Assembly (NCBI GenBank): GCA_949751835.1 | Contig: CATKHK010000050.1 | Span: 248,001-312,000 of the forward strand | Length of the DNA: 64,000 nucleotides | Source of the DNA: Blepharisma japonicum | Lineage: Eukaryota > Ciliophora > Heterotrichea > Heterotrichida > Blepharismidae | Direction: 5' to 3' | In this document: in pieces, positions 10,559 to 53,067 of the stretch | Layout of the letters: the number at the start of each line of letters is the position of its first letter | Numbering within the stretch: position 1 is the first letter of the stretch | Program-made: the position numbers and the translations under genes | The notes under the pieces: generated by a model | Databases searched by the model: none | What the model was told of the DNA's origin: nothing | Seen by the model: only the letters and a program-made list of their open reading frames with translations

Positions 10559-13500
10559 ATGATTGCAGATACAAAAGAATATCATCTAGGTGACCATCAT
10601 CTACTCTCTCACAAAGAGCCATTGGGTGAATTTAAAAAATTTCAAAGGTATTTATTGGAATGCCTAGGTGAAATTTTTGAGCCTGAGTTCAATACAAAAA
10701 TCTCTTATAATCGGCAACTAATCCGTGAAGTGATTTCAGCTATGATCATTATATTTCAGGCAGTATCACTTTTCTGGTACCCAGATATGTCACTTCGTCA
10801 TTGAAGTTCTTATTCCACATTTTGAAATTGTCTTAGATTTTTTGATTATGATTACCTGTGTGCAAGACTAAATGTTTACCCTTTTTGTATCATAGGAGAA
10901 TGCATTTTATTTATATACTCACTCATAATCTTAGCGCTATACTGTATTTTTAAGCATTTTAACTACAAATTGCCTAGCATTTTACTCTATATTGCAAAGA
11001 CCATTATCATTTTTTTTACCTCGATATTACTAATTCCATTTGTAACAACTCTTCTTGTTGTCCTCAAATATTCAATTGGTAAGTATGAGTATGCTCATGA
11101 GTATGATGATCATGATACTAGTAATTATAATTTTGGAGCTTTAGGGAGTATTTTTAGCATCCTGATTTTAGCTATTTTTTTGCCTATATCTTTTATGGTG
11201 GAAATTATAAAGGCAGATCTTAGGCATTCGGCGGCTTATAAAAACATAAAAGCTAGGTCTAACTCTGCATGGGATTTGCTCTGCATATTATGCTTTATTA
11301 TTCAATGTCTTCTGTTTGTATTTTTAAGCAAAAATCTTCATGAGTATCATTTAGTGATAAGCATGGGCATGGGGATATATTTGTTGGTACTTGAATTTAG
11401 ATTTTTGCATTATTTCAACCCAATTGAAAATTCAATTCAAGCTTGCAAGATGGGATGCATTTCTATGTGTTCGGCTGTATTTTTATTTTCATATTTAACT
11501 GATAGTGCAACAACACTGACATTGCTATGCATCTTTTTGCTACCATTATCCTGCTTTTTTATAGCATTTTATACACAAAAAAAATATTTGACATTAAAAT
11601 CCAATAGAGACGACCCAAAAAATCAATATACCTTGGAGCATTCAATTAGACACTTATTAATAGACAAAAATTGCAAAAATAAAAATGAAATAAACGAGCT
11701 ATTGTCTAAACATTTTAGCTCGACTATGAAGAAAAATGCTCTTTATGCTATTTGAGAAGTCAATTTTTGCATTAATATTGCAAAAGATGAGCGACTGGGG
11801 AGAGTAAAATTGACAAAATACCATTTTCTCAAGTCGAATGTTGAAGCGTATGTGCAAATGTTTAGAATTGTAAAGAAATTTGAAGAGAATGGGAGTGAAC
11901 TGTCAGAAATTGAATACCTAGATCACTTACTAAGCCTTGATGAGGCCAAAAAGTCAGATGAAGAAATATGTTCTCTTTTATTAGATTTGTGAGCAGAAAT
12001 TGTGAGAAAAGATCCAAATATTAGCAAGCTCAGAAATTTGATTACCAAAATTTATGAACTTTCCAATAGAATTAAGGAACTATATGGTTCAATATCACAG
12101 GAAATCAGGAATTCTGAGGTATTTGACCTATACGGACTATTTTTGATTAATATTCTAGGAGAAATTGAACAAGGAAATATAATACTAAAGAGAAAGCTAA
12201 ATATGAAGACCCCCGAGTCCTATATGGACTTTAAAAAGCTTGAAAATTACGATGAAAAATTTGGAATTATGCTAATCTCCACAGATATTGATGCATTTGG
12301 GACTATTTCATATATGAATGAAAAAGCTGCAATAATTCTCAAAGTTTCTCCAACTGAAATGATTGGACATGATTTTAATCAATTTATTCCCAAACCTTAT
12401 TCTCTAGAGCATAATGATCACATGCGCAACTATTATAAATCATGTGCAAGTACTGTTCTAGAAACATCCATGCTTCATTTCTTCAAAATCATAATGGATA
12501 CCTCTTTGAATGCAATGCCTTAATTAAGCTTACAGCATTCAAAAATAAAGCCTATTTCATGATTTCTTTTTCTCAAATTACCACAATAAGACAAATAATT
12601 TCCATATCAGAAGAAGGTCAAATATACAGTCATTCTTCGCAGCTAGTGTCAATAATTGGGTTAGATAAAACAAGCTATAGAAATATGAATATTTCTGATT
12701 TGATATCAGGAGTCAGCTTATCGAATTTGCCATTATTTGAGCCATTTATTGTTTATCATAATAATAGAAAAATGGCATTAGTCCATACACTAAGAAAAGC
12801 AAAATTAACTATAGCTCATCTTATTTTAATTTTAACTGACTACTCTGAAATAGAAAAATGAAAAAAGCAAGAGTCCGAAGAACAGCAGGAATATTTTACT
12901 AAATTACCAAAAAGTATTAAGGAAATTCCAGAGGATGAATATGAAAATGAAATGATCACGCGAACAAAAACTAAAAAATTAACATTTCACCTAAACTCTA
13001 TTGAGAGAACATCATACATTACAAGCACTCATGATTTACCGAACTCTGAAGCAGCTGATGAGGAAAAATCATACTCAGCTGCTCCTGTAAGTTCGGCATA
13101 CTCTCAATCAATATCTGTTGATCGTATTTTTCATTTAGGATCTGCATCAAAATATATAGTAAATACTGAGAATGCTATTAAAAAATTTCAGTGGATTTTA
13201 TTTATAACAGTACTTTTTAATTAGATCATAGCCATGATTGGGACCAATATTGGGATATTGGTTTATATTATAGAAGAGGTAACACATACAAATTCTTTAG
13301 AAATTTTTAACCATCTTGGCCAAATTATGTTTTATATCGGCTCAATGGCAAATATTGTTAGATCGATTAATATAGAAATCAGTCAAGGGGCATACAATTT
13401 TACAAGGGATTACGAATATTATCGCCAAAATATTGCTGGACTCTCAATTTTACAAAAAACAGTATTAGATGATAAATCACAGTGGAGTTACTGCCCAAGC

Positions 13501-15711: not shown

Positions 15712-18700
15712 TTAAGAATGTTTTGGTGATTTTTCTGATTTAATATAAGATGGTATGATTGAAATTATGAGCTGAAGCTTCGACAGCATTGCCATTTCAT
15801 GCTTGATATATGGAATATAATATAAAAAATACAATATAGTTATTGCAATCACATAAGCAATAGCACCATAAAGGATAAAATTTGATTTTTCCAAAATCAT
15901 ATTTTGTGAGGTTTGATCAATAATTTTATAAATCCCAGTCATTAATTGTTGTAATTGGGTCAGGTGGTTTGCTAAATTTTGAGATGCTTCGAAAAAATTC
16001 TCTTTATTGTATTGAAGATCCCAGGCATCATAAAAAAGTAAATTTGTATATCAAAATGTGCCGTAGCTAAACCCTGGGATCAATATGGTTTTATGTTCAA
16101 ATAGATTTGACTTGACCAGAGAAGACATATATTCCATTCTATCGAGCAACAGCTTATTTTTATAATGGAAAGAGCTCAGAGTTTTATCGAGTTCATCGTT
16201 TGGATTTGAGAAAATATCGGGCATCAAAGCTCAAGACTCATTATCAAACTTTCGTAGGCCTGCTTCCCTCGCTCAGAAGCCAATAGCAGGAGCGAGAGCT
16301 TTTCTGGATATATAGGTTCCTAGGAGTTCAGGTCGCTCAATTAGGTATTTTTCACATATTGGGTATATATATACATGTACACATACATAATAAACAATAG
16401 TAATCGAAAAAAGAATCAATAGACGCAAGATATACCTCGAAGAAACAGTAAAATGAACTGTTTTGCCTTTATTAATAGTTTTTTGTAATGCCTCTTGGCG
16501 ATCCTGATTGAAATCGACACCGTGAACTGATGATAGTCTGTCAAGACACAAAGCAACTAAATCAAAATATGCTCCAGCTGCTGCTTGAATGATAAAATTT
16601 CACAATAAATTATATCGCTTGTTTATTGAATATACTATCATAATAAGAACAATTATGCAAATTCCAGAAAAAACAGATTGGATAATTACGAGAAGCTTGA
16701 CAGTAGAATTTAATTTATGAATTTGATTTATCTCGCAATCAATTAGCCCATAAAGGGATGAGTTTATCTGCTTAGAGTTTTCTCCAAAGCCATTAGAAAT
16801 TAAGAACTGCAAATTTTCCGTGTAATCCTCAGAATGATTTAATTTGTAAATAAAATTTTCAGACTAAATATAAATTACATGGTCAATAAATAGATCAATT
16901 TCATCATGTAAATTCTTATATAACACTTTTGGAGTATCCAAAAATTCTCAAGTCGACAACAAATTACTTTTAACAATTTTTGAGCTGTGGCAATAGCTTC
17001 ATGAGTCGTAATTGTCTAATATATGATTTTGATATGCAAGAAAATCGGATTTTGAGGTTTGCAATAATTCAATATAAGTATTAATTTCAGTTTTATCATA
17101 TTTTGTGCAGAAATCAATAGTTCTTGCATAATTTGCAGATGCTATCATACTGTACATAATAATTCCTAGATCATTGAAGGTTTCAGTGAGTTTTGTATGA
17201 TTTACAGATTTTGAAATATATATGGATATAGCAATATTAGAAACTGAAATTAATAAAATCTATATAAAGCATACTGATAAAAATAATACCAATTTGAATC
17301 ATTTTAAAGATTTTTGAGATTTTGATATAATACGAACTCCCTTATCTAAGTAATGGTTACGATTATCATGTGAGGAAACACTATGTGTAGCTGAGCTTAG
17401 AGTTTTTTCAAGAAAATTTGAGTTACCTTCATCACTTTTTACTATGTCCATAATTGTACTGTCAGCTTCTGATACATTTTCATCAAGAGTTGTTAAATGG
17501 TGATTCGTCTGCTTTAGTAGCTCATGCTTATCTGATTCTATCGATAAAAATTTAGAACGTCTTTTTATATCAAAATTATTTTCACTATTAGTTAATATCG
17601 GCGGATGTTCAGTATATTTTATTTGCTCATAAGCTTCACCTTTAGTCCATGCATTTATTTCATAAAAATCTTGTACCAGAACAATATATGGTATTTCAGT
17701 TGATTTAAAATCTTTTTTGCAATAAATAACTGCAATTATTTTTTCTTTTCTTTGAATTAGCTTTGGCTTAAACAAGACCATTTGACAAAAATCAATTTCA
17801 GGGATTATATCATCTATAGTTTTAAATATGAAGCATGATTTTTCTATATTTAATAGGTGGTGAAAATTCTGAGAATGGCTGTATATCATTCCTTCCTTTG
17901 AAATTAAAGCAACTTCTCTGTTTTTGGTGCATGCCATCATTGAGACCATATAGTATAGACTCTCATCAAGAGCTGTTAATCTGATTAAAAATTTGCATTC
18001 ACTTAAATTGCCATTATGATCTATAATAAATAGTGTATCTCTTTTGCCTAGCTGTGGATCTGCACATGTATCAACAAATTTTTTCATAGACTCTGCATGG
18101 AATTCATTATATGGTTTTGGTATATATTGATCTATTTTATTTCCTACTATATTATCAGAAGTTTCTTTTAGAATTTGAGCAGCAATCTCATTAACATACA
18201 CGATTGTTCCAAATTTTTTTTTTTGAGCAGAAATTAGCATATTCCCAGAATATTCATCAAATTTTGTAATAATATTTTCATGAATCGTAAATTCTTCTTC
18301 GCTTTTTAATTGGTACACTTTGTGTAACAAATTTCTTCCTTTAGTGAATTCCTGCAAAATATTTTGTAGAAGGCCTCCATATAGCTCATAAACATGTGCG
18401 TGATTTGTATGAAGCATTTTCTTATATAAATCTTCAACTTTGTTGATTTCATGATAAACTTCATTTGATAAATTTTCTAGTTTGTTTAAGTTTGATTTTT
18501 TAGAGAAGACTTCATATCATAGCTCTAGTAAATATCTGCATAAAACTTCATCTTCTTTCTTAGCAACTTGTAAATCAATTAAATAAAGTAAAAAATTATT
18601 GGCGATTTGATCTGTACCTGGATGCCTTTTCATCCATTCATCGATCCTTAAAGCTTGAATTTCTCCTTCAATGCTTGAAATTACACTTCCCATTCGAGCA

Positions 18701-19956
18701 TACCTTATTTTTGCAAGCCTAATATCATTCACTGTATGTAAGAAATAATATACTTCTCAGGCCACTAGTAATTTGTCACGTCTGAACATGGGAATATTGT
18801 AAATTTCTGCGAATTTGTTAATAATATTATCAATGTGGATAGGCGAGGTATCCATTAGAAGCTTACGAATTTGGAGCTCAAAGGCATGCTGGTCTAAGGC
18901 GATTTGACTTTCTTTTGCATTTTCAACTAAGATTAAGATTCTTCTGAAAATGAGGAGTCCAGCTGCAGGTATTACACAAATGCTAAGAATAAAGGTTACT
19001 CCTGCATTATCCATTGCAACCCCAATAAGAAAACTAAAAGCAAATCCAGATAAAATTAGGAGCTGAGTGATTTTTATTGCGTTAAGTATCGGATTGAAAT
19101 ATGAGTTAAATTTAAAGGTCAGATAAGAAAAAATTAGAGACAGCGAAAAAACGAATCAAATATGCCAAATAAAATGATCATACCCATAGAAGACATATAT
19201 AAATACGACTATAAATTTTGTGAATAATTGAGCTAAGTCCAAATTTGAATCTGATCTTGCTTTTATATTAAAATTTGAAAAAGAGTGGCGAACATCTGCT
19301 GTGAATAGTTCATAAATAATAGCTAGTAAAAAGAGTAATACTGCTGAAGAAATACCTAAAATCGATCCTAATACTCCTAAAGAAAATTTGTTCTTTGGTA
19401 GTGATGAGTATAATGTTCCATCAGGATCTGCTAAAAAGGAGTATTTAGCAGTTACCAGTAAAATCATGAGAGAAGGAATATAGCCAACAGAAAATAAAAA
19501 TCCAAAAAGAAAACTTGGAAGCTTGATAAAAGCTTTGGGTATTTTTCATGATCAAAATATAAGAGTACTGATTATACTAATATAAATTATGCTTGTTCAT
19601 AGAATTGTGACTATAAGCAAAAAAGCTGGAAAATAGAGACGAGAATCAGAAATCCATGAATCAAAGCTGAAATATCCAAAGAGTTGTCAGTAAATACCAA
19701 ATTTTTTTCAAAATTGGATACTCATCGTAGGATACCAAAGCAGTGTGACAATTTGTATAATATTTAGTGAATTTATAACAATTTCCATAATAATTTGGGT
19801 CACTCTTTTACTTTTTATGCTATATTTAGGTTTGAAAAAAATCTTGAGAGATTGAATTGTGACAATTTTTGCTCTTATTAGTCAATCTTCCTTTCTTGAA
19901 TTAAGGTATTTGAAGGAAAAGGAGTCCTTGTCGAAATTTTCACTATTTAAAACCAT
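15712..19956 (-). CDS. G4: inverted, divergent PAS-domain multi-pass membrane protein
   Basis: The only array member on the minus strand. ATG is at 19956-19954 and TAA at 15714-15712; removing three 15-nt introns (A 17346-17360, B 17260-17274, C 16864-16878) gives about 1399 residues. Intron positions match those of the + strand copies, so it is a true paralogue. The PAS domain again starts near residue 566 (GTIVYVNEIAAQILKE). It is the most diverged copy: the N-terminus begins MVLNSENFDK, the loop after the third helix reads KYSFLADPDGT, and ILPKMIP is replaced by IISIIPSYIKSE. Trp is encoded by both TGA and TGG. Confidence 0.9.
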
Positions 19957-48652: not shown

Positions 48653-48676
48653 TTTAAGGAAATTTTAAATAAATAA

Positions 48677-51600
48677 ATGATTACATTACTAAAGGAAGCA
48701 TCATCAAATAGCAGTCGCCAATTTTTAAATAAAAAAGGCTCAAAAGTGCTTGAAAAGACAAAGCAATTTATATTTGACTGTTTGATTAGGATATTTCAGC
48801 CTCAATTTACTCATAGTAAAAATTACCAGACTCAAGTAATTATTGAAATTATTACAAATTTTATAATGTGTCTGCAGGCTGCATCCATATTCTGATACCC
48901 AGGAATGACACTTGATGGCTGAGATAATTATTTTGTTTTCTGAAAATATATATGAATTTTTAATTATGATTGTGTATGTGTTAATTACAATATTTATATT
49001 TATTGCTTTGCTGGACAAATCTTAGCAATTTTTTATTCCATTTTTACATTTCTATTGTATTTTGCAATAAAGGCATTAAATTGAAAATTCCCAAAAATAT
49101 TTATAGCAATAGCTAAAGAAATAATCAGCTTTTTTGCAACGGTTGGATTAATTCCTTTATTATCATTTTTATTTATCATTTTTAAGTACTCTACGTTTAA
49201 AGTCAGTAGGGTTCAGGAATATTATGAATCTAGCCCTGAATCCTTCGATTATGGGCCTATTGGATCAATAATCTGCATAATCACATTTGGACTTATAATT
49301 ACGATAGCTGCTATTTATGAGCTATTTACTGCTGATCTCAAACATACAAATTCTGATAGAAATTTGAGGGCAAGATCAAATTCAACATTAAGCTTATTAT
49401 GAATTTTATTTTGTGTTATACAAGTGGCACTTTTTATATCTCTTAACGCAAATTTAATTGTGACTTATTTGATTATAATATTGATTATGGCTATATTTTT
49501 ATTCATAAAATATATATTTCTTTTACCTTATTACAGCACTTTAGGAAACTCAATTCATGCTGGGAAAATGGCCATCATAGCAACCTATTCTATAGCATTT
49601 ATTTTTAGTTACATAAATAACAATGCCCTTGTGCTCACTTTATTGTGTATATTTTTGCCGCCATTTTCAGTAGCTTTAGAGTGAATTGTGGTATCCAAAA
49701 ATTATTCCAAGCTTTCAAATACAGAAAATCCTTTATCAAGCCAGTACAGATTCGAGCATTCTATGCGAAATTTTCTTATTAACAAAAATTGCGATAATAG
49801 AGAAGAAGTTATAGAAATAATTTCTCACTACTCAAATAATAAACTTTTCACAAAAAATGGCCTCTTCGTCATATGAGAGGTTAACTTTTTTATCCATGTT
49901 GTTAAAGATGAGAGGATCGGAAGGATAAAACTAACTAAATTCCATTTATACAGGCCAAGTTTAGAAGGGAGTGTGCAAAAACTCAGAATGTCTAAGAAAT
50001 TCGATGAAAAAGAGTTTACACAATTGAATGAAATTGAATATCTGCGCTACTTGACAGATCTTCATAAAGCGAAAAGAAAAGATAGAAAAATCTGTTATGT
50101 AATATTAAATCTTTGGGCTGAAATAGCACGAAAAGCTCCAAAAATTCAAAAACTTAGATTTCTAACAGAAAAATTTTCAGACCTTGCAACACAAACTAAG
50201 CAATTATATAGAATTTTGGCAGAGAAAAACGAATATCCAGAAATCTTTGATTTATATGGAAATTTTTTAATTAATATCCTTGGTGATGTCGATGAAGGAA
50301 ATTTAATTCTCAAAAGAAAGTTTAGATTAAAAGAAGATTCAGTCGTTATTGGAGGGCATCATAAGCGGCTAGAAGAATATGGTGAAAAATTTGGGATTAT
50401 TTTATTATCAACGGAGCCCAAAACTATCGGATCAATTTCATTTATAAACGAAAAGGCTGCAATGATGCTAAAAGTTTCTTCTACAGAAATAATTGGAACA
50501 AGTTTAAATAATTTTATTCCATGGCCCTATTCTATAAATCATAATGAGAAATTAAAGAAGTTTTACAGTGCAGATACCAAAACAACTATAGATAGTATTC
50601 ATACATTGATTCTTCAAGACAACTATGGCTATATTTTTGAATGCAATATTTTGATTAAGCTTACAGCGTTCAAGGATAAAGCTTATTTTATGGTTTCTTT
50701 TTCTCCAATTTTTTCTAATAGACAAGTGATTTTGGTGTCAAAAGAAGGAGAAATATATAACCATTCCAGTCATCTCTCTACATTACTAGGATGCTCAAAG
50801 CAAAATATGTCGAAAGAATATGTTTTTGACATTGCGCGTGGACTTGAATGGTTTGATATGAAATTATATGAACCATTCGCAATAAAATGCAATGGTATTG
50901 AATTGTTATTTGTCCATATAATTAGGGCAATAAAATCATCAGAAATTCATTTAGTTTTAGTGGTTAGCAATACAAATGAGATAGAAAAATGAAGGCACAA
51001 AGCATCTGATGAGCAATTAGAATTTTATAATAACAAAACTATGAGTTTCATAGAAATTCCTAAACTAAGCAGCGAAAAAATAGTCTTTGAGGAAAAAAAC
51101 TCTAAAATGAACTCTGGGCTTTATAGCACAATTGATGATCTTATTAAAATAAATTCCCAAATGGAAAGTAATGCTGAAATCCCAGAAAAAAATAGAAGGC
51201 TTTCAGTGTCAATAAATGAAAGCACTGTAAAGCCAACTTGTGATGGTATTTTATATATAGAAACTGCATATAAATCCATTAATTCCCCATTGATTTAGCT
51301 ATCAATGCATTTTTTATACTAAGGGAAAAGCTTTTTATTGAAAAATGTTTTATATTAAAATCATTAATAAAGCATTTTTTTAGTATTTTAAATATTTTAA
51401 AGTTTAAATGTTTGAAAGGTTAAACCTAATTTAATTTATGTTTAGGATGTAAACTGTCTAAGCAAACAGAAATGTCAATAATAAGATTTCACTGAATTTT
51501 ATTTTTAACTGTAATCTTAATATAGGCTGCTTCAATGATAGGGACGAATATTGGAATTTTAGTTTATATTGTTGAAAGCATTGAAAAGACAAGCTCATCT

Positions 51601-53067
51601 ACAATTTTTACAAATTTGGGAGAAATTGAATATTTTTTAGGGACTTTTCCTTTATTGGTTCAAATGATTAATACAGAATTTTCTACAAATAACTCTCATT
51701 TGTCTAATGATTTAGCAGATTTATATGACATAACTATGCAGCTTAATCTTCTACAAGATAAACTAATGAGTGAATTATCTCAATGAAGCTATTGTGAAAG
51801 TTCTAAAATAGTTTATGAACCTATCATACCTATATGAGAATTTAACACAGATTCTGAACTATTAAAATACAATTTATATGACGTTTTATCTCAGTTCATT
51901 TATCATGTAGCTTTTATTTAGTCTCAAAAACTGCAAGCCAATATAATCAGTAGAAATGAATACAAAGAGGATGCTAAATGGTTGATGCGAAATGGAATTA
52001 GCTTTGTTTCTCATTTTATTGATAAAACATATAAAAGTCTTTCAGAATGTGAAAAAAATAGAATAAGTGATATCAGCTTTGTAGTTAACACTTTATTAGC
52101 AATTGGGATTATTATTTCTGCATTATGCTTAGCCACCCTTATTTATTTCACATTTTCTCTTAAATTTATATATGAAGAATTTTGACTTAATTTGAAAAAA
52201 TCTGCTATTTCTCATCATACTATGATAAAAAGTATTTCTATTGACCGACTTTTAACAATCCATGGCCATGATTTAACACACGATGGTACTGATTATTTAA
52301 AAGCTCCAAAACCAAGTAATTATTCTATTAAAACGACCCTTGCTAAAGATTTTGTTTTAAGATTAAGCTTACTTATAATATTTTCAGCAAGTTTTTATTT
52401 GCTTATGATTTTTTATTTTTATAGAAATTGCGAAATTTCAATGATAAATCGCCCAAAATTCTTACAAGATTTTAATAAATTTAGAATTTTGCTTTTACAA
52501 AATGAATTTTATATAAAAGAGCACAATGATCAGGGAATACGAAAATATTACCCAGAATCATACTCTATTTGCAATCCTTTGAAAGAATTATCTAACATTC
52601 TAATCGCCTATAAAAATACTCATAATAGCATGCAGTCTCCAGAGCTATCCAATTTAATATCAAAAGATCTAAAAATAGAATTTTATGAGAAAACAACTTT
52701 TCCTAATAATATTATGAGATATGGGCTCATGAATGCATATGAAATGATACTTTTAGATGCATTTTATATTAAAGAAGATTATTCTGAGGATAAATATTTA
52801 GATCATTTGATTAATGTTATTGAATTAGAAAAAATATTATTTTCTAGTGTTAATCTTGTAGATTCTAGTGCTAAAGAAGTTATTGAAGGGCAGCTGAGCT
52901 TAATGATATATCTTACTATTGCATTTTCAGCTATTTTGGGGAGTTTAAATTTATTTTATTATTTGCCATATGTAAGGAGTCAATTAAATTTCATTCGAAA
53001 GGCTTGCTTATTACCTAAAACTCTTATGAATTGAGAAGAAAATAGCAAAGGGGAATTTATTTACTAA
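48677..53067 (+). CDS. G10: PAS-domain multi-pass membrane protein interrupted by a 179-bp IES-like insertion
   Basis: ATG 48677 (MITLLKEASSN), stop TAA at 53065-53067. Introns A 51246-51260, B 51511-51525, C 51907-51921. Between A and B a 179-bp AT-rich segment with several stops breaks the frame (first stop TAG at 51296-51298). Taking out one TA plus the interior (51280-51458) gives YKSIKQTEMSIIRFHW, which aligns without a gap to YKNNKRTAFLLQKFQW of G9; the product is then about 1388 residues. PAS starts near residue 568 (GSISFINEKAAMMLKV). With the insertion kept, the protein would end after about 860 residues and lose helices nine to twelve. Confidence 0.9.
51280..51460. mobile_element. 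Retained IES-like insertion bounded by TA
   Basis: A TA at 51280-51281 and a TA at 51459-51460 flank the insert; removing 179 bp leaves one TA and restores the frame exactly. The interior is very AT-rich, carries no coding sequence and no clear terminal inverted repeats. A small perfect hairpin (CATTGAT, six bases, ATCAATG) lies near the left end. TA-bounded, precisely excised germline segments are known in Blepharisma, and partly retained ones occur in somatic DNA. It is far longer than the 15-16 nt introns here. Confidence 0.75.

Follow-up and report, generated by a model that had tools for sequence, protein, structure and literature searches.

What interrupts the tenth gene of a tandem array in the ciliate Blepharisma japonicum? 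The window, a stretch of 64,000 nucleotides, carries 11 tandem paralogues (G1 to G11, G1 being cut by the window edge) of a gene for a TmcB/PAS-type protein, the intact copies of which encode about 1346-1418 amino acids. G10 is the copy with an insertion, which the first-pass annotation regarded as a likely internal eliminated sequence (IES) retained in somatic DNA.

48677-53067, + strand: gene G10, a paralogue for a multi-pass membrane protein of the TmcB-TPR/PAS type, interrupted by the insert (gene models, family alignment, Pfam)

Pfam recognizes the TPR_TmcB domain in G10 (2.6e-11), while the PAS domain falls under the cut-off in G10 and over it in G9; the membrane passes of G10 were judged from sequence. 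A literature search on TmcB in ciliates found no paper.

The interrupting DNA is non-coding, contains stops, and measures exactly 179 bp. The two TA dinucleotides proposed as its bounds are present at 51280-51281 and 51459-51460, 179 bp apart, and the ungapped alignment with G9 that was said to follow excision is recovered as well, G10 minus the 179 bp reading AYKSIKQTEMSIIRFHW and G9 reading AYKNNKRTAFLLQKFQW, with 7 of 17 residues identical. We made every trial deletion with its start in 51240-51299 and its end in 51399-51498 (6000 in total, 1328 of them stop-free) and scored them with a family profile built from 29 intact relatives. The 11 top junction classes, those at most 2 bits below the best score, every one remove 179 bp, and two of these 11 have a TA-containing direct repeat.

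51280-51458, + strand: 179-bp insert, option A, with TAA repeats at 51280-51282 and 51459-51461; the best of the 1328 stop-free deletions, 290.6 bits
51271-51449, + strand: 179-bp insert, option B, with TAAA repeats at 51271-51274 and 51450-51453 and imperfect inverted ends TAnATCC (6/7); 290.4 bits
51296-51298, + strand: first in-frame stop within the insert (TAG), where the upstream open frame ends

The boundary of option B lies 9 bp upstream of that of option A and fits equally well, and judging by protein similarity the two options cannot be told apart. The bounds originally described are those of option A: the TA is there and the fit is good, yet the exact direct repeat is TAA, which is more than TA, and this boundary is one of two equals, the other being TAAA at 51271/51450. 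The insert length is 3n+2, and TAA or TAG stops occur 3, 8, and 4 times across its three frames, in agreement with its description as non-coding and frame-breaking. Precise removal of the 179 bp restores the G10 coding frame, both in the ungapped family alignment and in a 71-nt exon considered below. Somatic copies that carry the insert would end at the TAG and give no full protein.

The exon in question is a micro-exon between two tiny introns, and it serves as a second ruler for the insert. It was searched for in 90 relatives with introns of the GTA...AG type and with no preferred length.

51246-51260, + strand: inferred 15-nt intron 5' of the micro-exon, GTATTTTATATATAG, at the same relative place in 36 of 38 relatives with the intron triple
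51261-51279, + strand: 5' part of the micro-exon, 19 nt (option A)
51459-51510, + strand: 3' part of the micro-exon, 52 nt (option A)
51511-51525, + strand: 15-nt intron 3' of the micro-exon, GTAATCTTAATATAG

The intron triple could be placed in 38 of the 90 relatives, the other 52 being uninformative. The exon between the first two introns can be 71 nt long in 36 of these 38; lengths of 56 and 78 nt come next, with two occurrences each. Under a looser rule that accepts any GT start, which adds chance triples, 71 nt is included in 37 of the 50 relatives with a triple. The corresponding exon of G10 (51261-51510) spans 250 nt against 71 nt in relatives, and 250-179=71; the insert therefore measures 179 bp, with no exon base lost or gained. 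Thus, of the two words used earlier for the elimination of this sequence, "imprecisely" is not borne out, whereas an incompletely eliminated IES is possible. The intron at 51246-51260 is in frame and stop-free, and hence not required for the open frame; since the same is often true of its counterparts in relatives, it is easily missed, and automatic models keep it as coding.

The host genome has features of the Blepharisma type. The window covers positions 248001-312000 of contig C50 in an assembly of 45.2 Mb and 224 contigs. Reading TGA as Trp (table 4) yields long open frames, and the gene models, which permitted introns of 15 or 16 nt and no other length, need these alone. A search for three consecutive CCCTAACA units gave overlapping matches in both orientations, 77 of them forward and 91 reverse, against 0 for the reversed control. 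Among the matches listed, those on contigs C11, C36, C47, C69, C78, C80, and C89 lie at most 421 bases from the contig start, and those on C38 extend to its last base; further listed matches fall on C4-C7 and C17. The same telomere repeat, code, and tiny introns are reported for B. stoltei (PMC9942806), so that all three are those of a Blepharisma-type IES host, and from the telomeres and the code we infer that the assembly belongs to a Blepharisma-type heterotrich and is largely somatic. For B. stoltei, a size of 41 Mb and a GC content of 33.5% are reported (PMC9942856, PMC9942806), while the 20 paralogue loci fetched from the present assembly have 28.8% GC. The 41 Mb of B. stoltei carry 39,799 IESs, or about one per kb (PMC9942856). 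At this density, assuming that it carries over to the present species, a 64-kb germline contig would hold dozens of interruptions; the array has one, and the contig is therefore somatic in character.

The G10 insert stands alone among the relatives examined. With the last exon of G10 as a query, at least 108 matches were found in the genome, itself included, and for 90 of the 107 others the sequence around the junction was inspected: 10 in the window, 20 as whole genes, and 60 as pieces of 661 bases. A frame-breaking insert at the G10 site occurs in none of the 90. All 20 whole fetched relatives gave single gene models, and in each of the 60 pieces a path stays open once introns of 15 nt (94) or 16 nt (4) are removed; the same test found no path through G10 and a good path for G9 and G6. 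When the first exon of G9 was used as a query, 51 of the 52 matches had an open frame of at least 802 amino acids, the exception being G3 (654).

The family itself is very large and partly tandem, occupying positions 6-58019 of the window and, among others, contigs C20, C40, C56, and C58. Protein identity ranges from 37 to 76% across the ten family pairs listed, and synonymous sites between paralogues are judged to be saturated. Compared with its close paralogue G5, the G3 gene lacks 1 nt near 12468 and is thereby broken; the deletion does not lie in a homopolymer, and the frame is otherwise open.

Apart from the insert, G10 is well preserved on both sides of the junction.

51526-53067, + strand: downstream coding part of G10, intact, with an intron at 51907-51921 (gene models, family alignment)
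51472-51474, + strand: first in-frame ATG 3' of the insert, a possible start if the gene is split

Without the insert there is no stop or frameshift over 867 + 525 codons. The invariant positions of the family are kept in 15 of 15 cases downstream and 16 of 17 upstream, and the strongly conserved positions in 53 of 59 and 78 of 86 cases, respectively. Dividing the downstream by the upstream branch length gives a ratio of 1.58 for G10, the second highest of 30 and above 28 of the 29 other relatives. This elevated ratio counts against a retained IES, because a decaying or split gene would show the same. In favour of a retained IES, the downstream region appears from its kept positions to be still under constraint. 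Both halves being intact, G10 must have been coding for most of its history, so that the insertion is recent, or the insert is removed, or the halves work apart.

Composition and ends of the insert are less telling. Its GC content is 20.1%, compared with 29.6% in genic and 24.7% in intergenic DNA. The first-pass annotation called it extremely AT-rich, which stands against coding windows, of which 0.2% are equally AT-rich, and does not stand against intergenic windows, where it is ordinary (20%). Chance alone would give TA-bounded repeats in 27-29% of comparable cases, and TA bounds taken alone are weak evidence for an IES; the chance of two TA-bounded repeats is about 3%, and of two of at least 3 nt 0.8-0.9%, both being post hoc counts. 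No inverted ends were found at the boundaries of option A, whereas those of option B (TAAATCC and TACATCC) match in 6 of 7 positions, with p of about 0.035 for the first 5 bases after the TA and 0.15 for the first 10, before allowing for two options. Long inverted ends are absent from the insert. Folding of the strand at 51271-51460 gave a z-score of -1.79, with 7 of 200 shuffles equally stable. A search of the 45.2-Mb assembly, which skips simple repeats and very common words, found the insert itself and no second copy, and local blastn against the window gave, besides the self match, short matches with a best E of 0.009 among those listed. Scans of the window against Rfam (at the gathering threshold) and for tRNAs gave no matches.

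We consider a retained or incompletely excised IES the best explanation of the 179 bp, and a somewhat probable one. Germline DNA would once have inserted at a TA within the micro-exon of G10. Such an IES would normally be removed when a new macronucleus forms, and in the nuclei sequenced it may have been left in place on most copies, thereby entering the assembly. In at least some nuclei excision would still proceed, and the enzyme would probably be the excisase of PiggyMac type that has been proposed for Blepharisma, for which the PiggyBac homologue BPgm is the reported candidate (PMC9942856, PMC9942806); it would leave one TA and give back the 71-nt exon. The initial suggestion of a retained IES thus finds partial support: the code and introns, the telomeres, the clean insertion with TAA or TAAA, and the single copy in the assembly, expected of germline-limited DNA, all fit it. 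What the sequence shows is the inserted DNA with its repeats and the ruler given by the exon; excision, which defines an IES, and its failure here are inferred. B. stoltei is reported to have about 40,000 IESs with a median length of 255 bp, of which three quarters are TA-bound and about 70% intragenic (PMC9942856). Terminal inverted repeats are common in Blepharisma-type IESs and not universal. For Paramecium exonic IESs, a deficit of stop-free multiples of three is reported (PMC3464196), and a length of 3n+2 with stops in all frames would fit an IES and is no proof of one.

Several features count against a retained IES. The length of 179 bp falls outside the peaks published for B. stoltei IESs above 115 bp (153, 174, 228, and 389; PMC9942856), and the GC content of the insert is lower than the 33.3% given for IESs of that species (PMC9942856), although local GC is lower too (28.8% over 20 fetched paralogue loci). 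Residual IES retention in B. stoltei macronuclear DNA is at most 0.02 (PMC9942856), and majority retention should therefore be rare. Somatic variation is known to arise in this way, when a polyploid macronucleus keeps an IES on some of its copies (PMC11334263); retention levels in Paramecium are reported to be fixed mainly at development, with mild drift in amitosis (PMC8467633). Seah et al. describe excision as a continuum and partly retained IESs as being oversimplified in assemblies (PMC9942856).

The main rival is a fixed insertion: a transposon-like or MITE-like piece would have entered germline DNA at a TA and never been excised, leaving G10 a young pseudogene in both nuclei. Tc1/mariner-type insertion also leaves TA target-site duplications (PMC9942856), the 1-nt deletion in G3 suggests that gene decay may occur in the array, and the slight excess of change downstream in G10 points the same way. 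However, neither a second copy of the insert nor long inverted ends were found, and since G10 is otherwise free of stops and frameshifts in its 867 + 525 codons the event would need to be recent; we regard such an insertion as a real but distinctly less probable explanation. It is also conceivable, though unlikely, that G10 has split into two working genes, one ending at the TAG of the insert and the other starting at the ATG at 51472; the insert would then serve as their spacer and as a promoter. Each half forms an intact open frame, the in-frame ATG is found 12 nt beyond the junction, the composition of the insert is ordinary for local intergenic DNA, and with a gap of just 24 bp between G9 and G10 a 173-nt spacer is not too short. 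On the other hand, the exon bases on the two sides of the insert sum to exactly 71, KQTE just 5' of the ATG still resembles KRTA of G9 and RRTE of G11, and none of the 90 examined relatives is split at this place.

RNA splicing, which had been named in advance among the findings that would overturn a retained IES, is disfavoured. G10 has other introns and removal of the 179 bp restores the frame, but the insert lacks GT-AG ends that would restore the exon: no GT occurs at 51261-51331, so that no GT-AG intron can leave a 71-nt exon, and there is no 179-nt GT-AG pair inside the interrupted exon. The best of eight stop-free GT-AG choices is 206 nt long and scores 514.7 bits against 525.8, or 11 lower. 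In the relatives no intron has to exceed 16 nt, which expresses sufficiency and no measured length, the models having allowed 15 and 16 nt only. Taken together, this makes an RNA intron extremely improbable. Hardly better placed is an assembly or sequencing artefact, either a chimera or a collapsed minor form. Where forms are mixed, assemblers pick one (PMC9942856), but the insert ends leave the length of the exon and its frame exactly preserved, and the assembly search, which skips simple repeats and very common words, found the sequence of the insert nowhere else; we consider an artefact very improbable.

A retained IES in G10 would be an uncommon event of a known kind, in a new place. Like the TA-bound intragenic IESs of B. 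stoltei (PMC9942856), the insert has TA-containing repeats, lies in a coding exon, is non-coding, falls within the length range, and restores the frame on removal; unlike those described there, it sits in a somatic-type assembly, its excision is putative, it has no strong terminal inverted repeat, and its length is off-peak. In Paramecium somatic reads, retained IESs are seen as TA-indels (PMC3464196). The insert resembles these residual TA-indels of the P. tetraurelia macronucleus as IES-like, TA-bounded DNA in somatic sequence, although the retained form is described in that report as minor in reads and absent from the assembly, whereas in G10 it is the assembled form. Differential retention and excision at Paramecium mtA and mtB (PMC11334263) offers a further parallel, in that presence or absence of an IES would switch the gene on or off; G10 differs from them in belonging to another gene family and in having no known regulation, inheritance, or phenotype. 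Some macronuclei might keep the insert and silence G10, and others lose it and express the full-length receptor-like protein, a somatic switch comparable to mtA/mtB, but such a facultative IES is very unlikely.

If confirmed, G10 would offer a heterotrich example of a defined IES at a single locus that persists in a somatic genome as the form assembled. The rigid 71-nt ruler would let excision precision be scored base by base, and the gene would be a candidate for asking whether incomplete excision is noise, inherited, or a gene switch in a large receptor-like family.

The insert shares a TAA direct repeat with the Bogo/BogoMITE elements of B. stoltei (PMC9942856). Identity with BogoMITE was considered and rejected: the inverted end published there does not occur at the insert ends, and a search of the assembly with 18 nt of it gave 0 exact matches.

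Two further observations concern the array. The G9 stop and the G10 start are separated by 24 bp (48653-48676, 8% GC), while other spacers of the array measure about 0.76 to 1.7 kb. G4 (15712-19956) is the sole minus-strand copy in the window and has the longest branch among the window copies.
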